A DNA stretch of 42,588 nt from Chlorobiaceae bacterium (GTDB lineage Bacteria; Bacteroidota; Chlorobiia; Chlorobiales; Chlorobiaceae), in the NCBI GenBank assembly GCA_013335405.1, contig JAAXVR010000025.1, forward strand, positions 1 to 42,588. Direction: 5' to 3'. Numbering within the stretch: the first letter of the stretch is position 1; each line of letters starts with the position of its first letter. The notes under the pieces were generated by a model. The model did not search any database and was not told where the DNA came from. It saw only the letters and a list, made by a program, of their open reading frames with translations. The translations under genes and the position numbers were made by a program. This document shows positions 37,039-41,410 of the stretch, one piece after another.

Positions 37039-39528
37039 ATGCAGCGCGAAAGAATCCTCCCGATCAGTATTGAGGAAGAAATGCGGGATTCCTATCTCGA
37101 TTATTCGATGTCGGTCATTGTGAGCCGTGCGCTGCCTGATGTCCGGGACGGCCTGAAGCCGGTCCACAGGCGTGTACTGTACGGCATGCACGAGCTTGGC
37201 CTGCAGGCAGGCAAGCCGCACAAGAAATCCGCCCGTATTGTCGGTGAAGTGCTGGGTAAATACCATCCCCACGGTGACAGCGCGGTATATGACAGCCTCG
37301 TTCGCCTCGTGCAGGATTTTTCACTCCGTTATCCGCTGGTTGACGGCCAGGGCAACTTCGGTTCCATCGACGGCGACTCTGCTGCAGCCATGCGTTATAC
37401 CGAGGTCCGCATGAAACCGATCGCCGGTGAGATGCTCAAGGACCTCGATAAAGAGACCGTCGATTTTTCGCTCAACTTCGACGATTCGCTCGAAGAACCT
37501 ACCGTGCTTCCTTCAGCGATACCGAACCTTCTGGTCAACGGCGCTTCGGGAATCGCGGTCGGCATGGCGACCAATATACCCCCGCAGAACCTTCGTGAGG
37601 TCGTCGACGGCATGATAGCTCTCATCGAGAACCCGGAGCTGGAAATCACCGATATCATGAAGCATGTGATCGCCCCTGACTTTCCGACCGGAGGGATCAT
37701 CTACGGCTATGAAGGTGTTCGCCTGGCTTACCTGACCGGCAGGGGCAAGGTTGTCATCCGGGCCCGAGCCCTTGTCGAGGTGACGCAGAAAAACGGCAGG
37801 GAATCGATCATCGTTACCGAACTTCCCTACCAGGTCAACAAGGTCAGGCTCATCGAAAAAATCGTCGAGCTGGTCCACGACAAGAAGATAGAGGGTATTG
37901 CGGACATCCGTGACGAATCTGACAGGGACGGCATGCGCCTGGTCATCGAACTCAAGCGAGATGCCGTCGCAAAGGTCGTGCTCAACAACCTTTACAAGCA
38001 TACCCCGATGCAGGATACCTTCGGGGTGATCATGCTTGCGCTGGTTGATGGTGTGCCGAGGGTCCTGAACCTGAAGGAGATGATGGAGTACTACATCCGG
38101 CACCGCAATGAAATTGTCCTGCGCCGGACGCAGTTCGACCTCACCGCAGCCGAAAAGAGGGCGCATATCCTCGAAGGCCTCAAGATCTGCCTCGATAATC
38201 TCGACGAAGTTATCGCCATCATTAGGCAGTCGCCTGATGCGCAGGTCGCGCAGGAAAGCCTCATGACAAGGTTCGCTCTTTCGGATATACAGTCAAAGGC
38301 TATTCTCGAGATGCGCCTGCAGCGACTCACCGGCCTCGAACGCAAAAAAATAGATACGGAATACACCGAGACCCTTGCTCTCATCGACGAGCTCCGCTCC
38401 ATCCTCGCCAATCCACAGAAACAGTTGCAGATCATCCGCGAGGAGCTGCTGAAGGTCAGGGAGGTCTATGGGGACGCCCGCCGGACCGAGATCGTCCCGC
38501 AGGAGGGAGATTTCTCCATCGAAGACATGATCGCACAGGAAGATGTGGTCATCACCATCACCCACGACGGCTTCATCAAGCGTTTCCCTGTGTCGGGCTA
38601 CCGCAGGCAGGCAAGGGGAGGCAAGGGGGTTACGGGTGCACAGGCGAAACACGACGATTTCATCGAGCACATGTTCATCGCCTCGACCCATAACCACATC
38701 CTCTTTTTCACCAACCGGGGCCGTTGCCACTGGCTGAAAGTCTACGAAATACCGGAAGCGGGGCGCGCAGCCAGAGGTCGTTCGCTCGCCAACATCATGG
38801 AACTGCAGCCGGGCGAAAAGATCAAAGCGTACATCAATGTCCGCAACTTCGATGAACCGGGCTTCATCATCATGGCCACGGCTGACGGTACGGTAAAGAA
38901 ATCCGCACTTGAAGAGTTTTCGCATCCGCGCCGCAACGGTATCGCTGCAATCACCATCGAAGAAAACGACGAGCTGATCGATGCCCGCCTTACCGATGGT
39001 GACCACCAGGTCATTCTGGCCAAGAGTTCGGCTTTCGCCGTACGTTTCCCTGAGTCGGAAATCCGTCCGATGGGGCGCACGGCCATGGGAGTAAGGGGCA
39101 TTACGCTCGACAAGGATGAAAAGTGCATCTCGATGGTCACCACAAAGCGTTTCGACACCGCACTTCTCGCTGTGACCGACAACGGTTTCGGAAAGAGAAG
39201 CAGAGTCGAGGATTACCGTCTCACCAGACGCGGCGCACGCGGGGTGATCACGCTCAAGGCGCATGAAAAAATCGGTGTGCTTGTCGGGCTGCTCGACGTA
39301 AGCGACGAGGACGATCTGATCATTATCACCACACACGGCATCGTGAACCGCCAGCATGTTTCGGATATCCGGCTTGCCGGCAGGAATACATCCGGCGTGA
39401 GACTGATCCGGCTCATGGCGGGCGACAAGATTTCCGCTATCGCAAGGGTACCGAAGAGCGACGAAGAGCTTGATGGCACCGAATTCCCTCCCGAAGATCC
39501 GGACGGCCAGATCCAGCTTTTTGACTGA
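37039..39528 (+). CDS. gyrA: DNA gyrase subunit A
   Basis: GyrA cuts and rejoins DNA in the A2B2 gyrase that adds negative supercoils. The 829-residue product has the breakage-reunion domain with catalytic Tyr120 in AAMRYTEV and the quinolone region [13 protein letters not shown], where Ser81 and Asp85 (E. coli 83 and 87) are the sensitive-type residues. A coiled-coil is near 360-490. The C-terminal beta-pinwheel begins with the GyrA box QARGGKG near residue 530, which marks gyrase rather than topoisomerase IV. gyrB is not in the window. Confidence 0.97.
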
Positions 39529-39570
39529 TGATCCATGACGGTATGAGATGATAAATCAGGGAGGGGGCAT

Positions 39571-39684
39571 ATGGAACTGAACAGGCCTTACAGGATCAGG
39601 GAAAGCGCAGGGATGAAATATTACTGCGCCTGCGGCAAGTCGGCGAATCCGCCTTTCAGCGACGGGGCCCACAAGTTCCTGTAG
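39571..39684 (+). CDS. CDGSH-type iron-sulfur miniprotein with the third Cys replaced by Ser
   Basis: This 37-residue frame is preceded by a strong GGGAGGGGG ribosome site and contains CACGKSANPPFSDGAH (residues 19-34). It fits the CDGSH pattern C-x-C-x2-S-x3-P-x-C-D-G-S/A-H except that the third cysteine is serine. CDGSH proteins bind a 2Fe-2S cluster with three Cys and one His and handle electrons or clusters. Here only two Cys and one His remain, so the cluster may be held by Ser, be labile, or be absent. It lies 42 bases after gyrA and 43 before pyrG. Confidence 0.75.
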   Translation: MELNRPYRIRESAGMKYYCACGKSANPPFSDGAHKFL

Positions 39685-39727: not shown

Positions 39728-41410
39728 ATGGCTCGGCCTAAAAACGTGAAACATATTATTGTGACCGGCGGCGTTATCTCTTCGCTGGGGAAGGGTATAT
39801 TGTCGGCTTCGCTCGGCATGCTGCTCAAGTCGCGCGGTCTCAGGGTCGCCATACAGAAATACGACCCGTATATCAATGTGGACCCGGGAACGATGTCGCC
39901 CTACCAGCACGGGGAGGTTTACGTTACCGATGACGGGGCTGAAACCGATCTCGACCTCGGCCATTACGAGCGCTTTCTCGACGAATCGACATCGCAGTCC
40001 TCGAACCTCACCATGGGCCGTGTCTACAAGTCTGTTATCGACAAGGAGCGCAGCGGCGAATACCTGGGCGCAACAGTCCAGGTCGTTCCCCATGTGATCG
40101 ACGAAATCAAGGACAGGCTGGCCGAGCAGGCGAAAAACAGCAGTCTCGATATCCTGATCACGGAGATCGGGGGAACCATAGGAGATATCGAGTCTCTTCC
40201 TTTCCTCGAGGCCATGAGGCAGATGAAGCTCGAAATGGGGGATCGCAACCTTCTGAACATTCATCTCACGTTTGTTCCTTACATCAAGGCAGCAAGCGAG
40301 CTCAAAACCAAGCCCACACAGCACAGTGTGAAAATGCTCCTCGAGACAGGAATCCAGCCGGATATCCTGGTCTGCAGGAGTGAAAAGCCCCTTTCGAGGG
40401 AGATCAAGAACAAGGTGGGTCATTTCTGCAACGTCAACGACCTCGATGTCATCGGGCTGAACGACTGCGAGACCATTTACGAGGTTCCTCTCATGCTTCT
40501 GAAGGAGAAGCTCGACCAGCGTGTACTCAAGAAGCTCGGCTTCAAGATGTTCAAAGAGCCGAGTCTCGATCATTGGAGAGATTTCTGCAACAAGGTCAAG
40601 AGCCCGAAAGACGGAGAGGTGACCATCGGCATCTGCGGCAAGTACACCGAGTACCCGGATGCCTATAAATCGATCCTCGAGTCTTTCATTCATGCAGGAG
40701 CGAGCAACAACGTCAAAGTCAACATCAGGTTGCTCAGGGCCGAGGACGCCGAGCAGGATTCGTTCAACTTCTCGAGGGAGCTCGAAGGCATCTGCGGTAT
40801 CCTTGTGGCGCCAGGGTTCGGCGACCGCGGTATCGAAGGCAAGATCAGATACATCCGGTATGCGAGGGAAAATAATATTCCGTTTTTCGGCATCTGCCTC
40901 GGCATGCAATGCGCTTCCATCGAGTTTGCCCGCAATGTATGCGGACTGCAGGACGCGAATTCCACCGAATTCAACAAGCGGGTCCGCTTTCCGGTCATAG
41001 ACCTCATGGAGCATCAGAAAAAGATCAAGGAAAAAGGCGGTACGATGCGTCTCGGCAGTTATCCATGCATTATCAGGGAAGGTTCGAAAGCCTACGACGC
41101 CTACAGGAAATTTCTTATCAACGAACGCCATCGCCACCGCTACGAATTCAACAACACCTACCGCCAGGTTTTCGAGGACGGCGGTATCGTCTTTTCCGGT
41201 ACCTCACCGAACGGTGAGCTTGTCGAGATCATCGAACTGAAGGACCATCGCTGGTTCGTGGGTGTGCAGTTTCATCCGGAACTGAAATCGCGGGTATTGC
41301 GGGTTCATCCGCTCTTTCACGGTTTTGTGGCGGCAGCGAAGGAATATTCGAGGGGATCGCGCCAGATGGAGCTTGCTGTCGACATGACGTTGCCGATACC
41401 CGCGGAATAA
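39728..41410 (+). CDS. pyrG: CTP synthase
   Basis: PyrG aminates UTP to CTP using glutamine and ATP. The 560-residue product has the N-terminal synthase domain with the P-loop [11 protein letters not shown] at about 13-23 and [17 protein letters not shown], then the class I glutamine amidotransferase domain from about 290 with the nucleophile Cys in [16 protein letters not shown] and the His-Glu pair in [14 protein letters not shown]-rich terminator follows about 50 bases after the stop. Confidence 0.97.

Follow-up and report, generated by a model that had tools for sequence, protein, structure and literature searches.

The short ORF between gyrA and pyrG in the window (the whole stretch of 42,588 nt of Chlorobiaceae DNA analysed here) is best explained, with a probability that we place at roughly 70 %, as what remains of a tandem-motif CDGSH protein (type 6, CISD3-like) that has lost both a repeat and a cluster cysteine. 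The ORF lies on the forward strand at 39571–39684, with an ATG at 39571, a TAG stop at 39682–39684 and the product MELNRPYRIRESAGMKYYCACGKSANPPFSDGAHKFL; a purine-rich, ribosome-binding-like stretch, GGGAGGGGG (39559–39567, forward strand), is found directly 5' of the start, and the 37-residue frame with a ribosome site proposed in the initial annotation is thus real. Its neighbours, as assigned with Pfam, are gyrA upstream (37039–39528) and the CTP synthase gene pyrG downstream (39728–41410), both on the forward strand, followed outwards by an RsfS gene 5' of gyrA and a gene for a HAD-type hydrolase 3' of pyrG. Against the Pfam zf-CDGSH profile the product scores 34 bits (E-value 3.5e-8; curated cut-off 29.5 bits), and as such the match is not due to chance and the initial assignment to the CDGSH family was right. 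By profile score, therefore, the protein belongs to PF09360; of the three cysteines and one histidine that serve as ligands in this family, it carries Cys19 and Cys21 (codons within 39625–39633, forward strand) and His34 (39670–39672, forward strand), the third cysteine being replaced by Ser30. The serine codon is AGC at 39658–39660 (forward strand), such that PFCDGSH had correctly been read as PFSDGAH. A second intact CDGSH copy in the same genome was excluded, as none was found above the Pfam cut-off and the Cys pattern gave 0 matches. The genome also encodes a member of the BChl_A family (bacteriochlorophyll a, FMO protein; E-value 6e-229), which makes a green sulfur bacterium its most likely source.

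In order to place the ORF among its relatives, 65 genomes of the genus, including its own, were searched with the tandem protein of genome G030. Matches were obtained in 51 genomes, giving 52 loci because G071 has two; one of these (L046) was skipped by the motif-parsing script, which handled 51, and was read separately as an intact tandem. In the genus, the gene between gyrA and pyrG specifies a tandem two-motif protein of 72–76 residues with a 36-residue repeat: two in-frame motifs are present in 49/52 loci, and a tandem with both ligand sets intact in 46/52. The repeat offset is 36 codons in all 28 relatives of the first set and in 48 of the 51 parsed loci, the remaining three being two single-motif copies and a frameshifted one. 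The two single-motif loci are the window itself and G084 (L062), whilst the frameshifted locus, L053 on contig C53 of G071 (G071:C53), has CDG changed to RVG in motif 2, leaving a remnant that reads FRVG. Additionally, three otherwise tandem proteins bear a single change in motif 1, with the second Cys altered to Phe in L029 (G002) and CDG to CNG in L057 (G076) and L063 (G085), which suggests some tolerance of damage to motif 1 within the genus. The location is equally constant, with gyrA 5' of the gene in 28/28 relatives of the first set and pyrG 3' of it in 27/28 (the DNA 3' of the gene in L014 is given as N), and both neighbours present at the loci read later. In the sister genus, too, 8 of the 21 genomes were found to have the tandem form. 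Hence the window ORF is orthologous to the type 6 proteins, by its place between gyrA and pyrG and by sequence match, and has a single motif where type 6 members have two, ∼20 residues apart in one chain.

Fourteen of the 65 genomes gave no match to the tandem query. In five of these (G004, G011, G022, G035 and G064) the gene is absent and only a spacer of 58–83 bp separates gyrA from pyrG (loci L035, L036, L037, L038 and L064). As L035 groups with the gene-bearing L010, L051 and L045, a separate clean loss is suggested for it. The place could not be read in G008, G023, G033, G034, G062, G072, G077, G087 and G088, which stand outside the 52-locus counts; in these nine genomes no pyrG start was found, and a partial gyrA end was seen in G062 only.

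That the window ORF has one motif only is certain. Its sequence makes it likely that the front of repeat 1 (codons 1–24) has been fused to the final part of repeat 2 (codons 25–37) by an exact, in-frame collapse of 108 bp. The protein resembles repeat 1 up to codon 24 and repeat 2 beyond it: among the first 28 relatives, Ala25 occurs in repeat 1 of none and in repeat 2 of 21, and Phe29 in repeat 1 of none and in repeat 2 of 24. The chain ends soon after His-Lys in repeat 2 only, and the window frame stops two codons past this pair. By summed log2 odds, positions 19–24 lean towards repeat 1 (by 4) and positions 25–37 towards repeat 2 (by 16). At the nucleotide level, a hybrid matches the ORF at 89 of 114 nt with the tandem gene on contig C27 of G071 (G071:C27) as parent (80 for repeat 1 alone) and at 84 of 114 with that of G030 (78 for repeat 1 alone). 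The switch falls at nt 67–72 of the ORF relative to G071:C27 and at nt 68 relative to G030; the likely junction lies at 39630–39643 (forward strand), where the repeats share CTGCGGC in G071:C27 and CTGCGGAA in G030. The small size of the protein is therefore best read as the outcome of this collapse rather than as an ancestral minimal form.

The gain in matching bases offered by the hybrid is modest, ranging from 0 to 12 nt with a median of 6 across 43 tandem parents of 74 residues, and its absence against some tandem relatives is what would be expected if there were no hybrid at all, but a truncation of repeat 1 past its motif, a loss of repeat 2 and ordinary substitutions giving rise to the residues that resemble repeat 2. 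Ala25 is indeed present in motif 1 at 7/8 loci from the sister genus and in that of G075 (L056), and the sister-genus loci L068, L069 and L070 have KSAN in repeat 1. Phe29 and the stop two codons past His-Lys nevertheless fit repeat 2, as does the distance from the stop to pyrG, which resembles that in the relatives; counted as far as His-Lys, the missing codons amount to exactly one repeat period, making such a truncation improbable. For the hybrid, we infer that 36 codons were deleted in frame between the repeats, perhaps by slippage or recombination within a short stretch, close to the C-x-C-G codons, that both repeats have in common. A single base change, from TGC or TGT to AGC, would also have removed the third cluster cysteine, a direction indicated by the relatives.

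A second collapse is found in G084, the closest relative, which encodes a 40 aa CDGSH protein with a single motif and a complete set of four ligands (Cys-Cys-Cys-His). The sister of G084, G071:C27 (L052), is still tandem, and the two are identical at 729 of 732 residues (99.6 %) over GyrA–PyrG. The G084 gene matches that of G071:C27 at 115/123 nt if a switch is placed inside the shared run CTGCGACGGC, and at 101 without one. In a FastTree phylogeny of 64 loci (L014, lacking pyrG, was dropped), G071:C27 and G084 group together with a support of 0.983, within a clade that includes the window (0.984). Because G071:C27, a tandem locus, shares with G084 a branch that leaves out the window, two collapses are called for; a single deletion common to the window and G084 was excluded on this ground, and the junctions differ as well. 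To judge from sequence, the G084 event is likewise a 108-bp collapse, independent of that in the window. We also observed that the two gyrA–pyrG contigs of G071 carry differing CDGSH copies, that on C53 being frameshifted with its motif 2 ruined, which suggests a strain mixture, contamination or a duplication. Given the listed completeness (86 %) and contamination (4 %) of G071, its two contigs may stem from different organisms.

The initial annotation had envisaged a natural Ser-ligated centre, and had named Cys at this site in relatives, looked for between gyrA and pyrG, as the sign of a sequencing error or a degrading gene. Cys is what the relatives have: the third position of motif 1 is Cys in 51/51 other gyrA–pyrG loci of the genus, and motif 2 likewise has Cys there in each of the 49 loci where it is in frame. 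Furthermore, a scan for the AGY-encoded Ser form of the motif in contigs of 84,980 species, a collection that may omit records near the window's own genome, gave five matches (about three being expected by chance by our own arithmetic), none of which lay in a CDGSH-like frame upon translation and two of which had a stop inside the motif; the pattern itself does recover the window. The TCN-encoded Ser form was present in 0 of 394 genomes of the phylum, 205 of which hold the Cys form. With no genuine case in either search, Ser as a conserved variant was excluded and the proposed centre is unsupported; among the material scanned, the AGY form of the third cysteine was found only in the window. 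An equivalent change of the third Cys in mitoNEET, C83S, is described as one that 'completely abolishes' cluster binding (PMC11383524). According to Lin 2011 (PMC3174974), types 5 and 6 are dominant in Chlorobi, 17 % of type 5/6 proteins have one degenerate motif, and the Cys-to-Ser changes listed in such motifs are judged most likely disruptive; serine is therefore already known in degenerate motifs.

A universal Cys at this site in the other loci, TGC and AGC being a single base apart, would also be consistent with a sequencing or assembly error, either at the Ser30 codon or at the deletion, with the true gene having the Cys or the tandem arrangement, and the assembly is a draft in 62 contigs. 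Its completeness of 99.99 % and contamination of 0.1 % argue against this, as does the similar collapse in another genome, G084. The repeats of G071:C27 and G030, moreover, share exact runs of only 6–10 nt, from which an assembly collapse would not be expected. A single-base error at Ser30 is possible, and an error of either kind is overall an unlikely explanation.

If the collapse and the cysteine loss are genuine, what the protein still does has to be weighed. By analogy with 3tbn, the ancestral tandem protein is predicted to have had a pseudo-dimeric fold that carried two [2Fe-2S] clusters; with half of this fold and three of four ligands, the product in the window most likely holds no normal cluster. 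It could, on the other hand, work as a homodimer, either with an unusual 2Cys-Ser-His cluster or in a cluster-free role. Single-motif CDGSH proteins are described as homodimers (PMC3174974), and the collapsed gene of G084 still specifies all four ligands. The start, the ribosome site and the frame are intact in the window, and 13 of the 14 positions that are strongly conserved (≥ 96 % of 45 intact tandem relatives) are retained. Accelerated evolution as a proof of decay was not found, codons 1–24 showing no clear excess of amino acid change, with dN values of 0.110–0.162 between the window and four relatives and of 0.017–0.191 among those relatives. Such a working homodimer is set against the lack of any genuine Ser-containing CDGSH protein in the searches above and the effect of the corresponding mitoNEET change, and we regard it as doubtful. 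We consider it similarly improbable that, in one clade of green sulfur bacteria, tandem (Class II) proteins have recently given rise to single-motif (Class I) CDGSH proteins at least twice through the exact removal of a repeat, with G084 a one-step working homodimer and the window copy retained with a cluster that is Ser-ligated or absent.

With a gyrA dS of ∼0.9 between the window and G084, neutrality along the whole branch would, by our estimate, have altered far more than one of the 14 positions, and therefore any decay is recent. A recent onset fits a late collapse, and equally a product that is still useful. We favour decay because a ligand and half the fold have been lost, because neighbouring copies are frameshifted or collapsed and because five spacers are empty. 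The window protein is thus most likely a remnant of recent collapse that probably lacks a cluster, and its gene is probably decaying; the loss would extend to function as well as to the cluster, and a decaying gene is more likely than a serine-held cluster of a novel type.

The nearest structural counterpart is PDB entry 3tbn, which we infer to be MmCISD, a type 6 protein from Magnetospirillum, since the three structures in PMC3174974 agree with the three 3tb entries. The G071:C27 tandem matches it over residues 3–73 of 76 (E-value 1e-17), and the window ORF matches each of its halves, differing in having one motif, one ligand fewer and half the length. Residues 5–18 of the window product also match the part of 3tbn that precedes its first motif, so that the initial description is overstated in reducing the protein essentially to the cluster loop. 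The degenerate type 5/6 CISDs described in PMC3174974, by which degenerate tandem CDGSH proteins are already known, also have a damaged cluster motif; these keep two motifs, only one of them degenerate, whereas in the window a repeat is gone and the sole motif is damaged. With the single-motif proteins (types 1, 3 and 4; Class I), such as mitoNEET (C72, C74, C83 and H87), the window ORF shares the 2-9-4 ligand spacing; unlike them it would have arisen by collapse of a tandem gene, and it is without the third Cys. A 2018 study proposed that single-motif CDGSH proteins were perhaps derived from two-motif ones by deletion, and noted the loss of one CDGSH domain in bacteria (PMC5859297). Paired, recent and exact one-repeat collapses beside a near-identical intact sister were not seen described in the excerpts covered by a small literature search. 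The serine itself carries little weight if, as is likely, the window gene is decaying. Of greater interest is that the window and G084 would be natural examples of recent collapse for which a nearly identical tandem gene, that of G071:C27, is available in intact form, by virtue of which the step from a two-motif to a single-motif CDGSH protein becomes testable at the bench.
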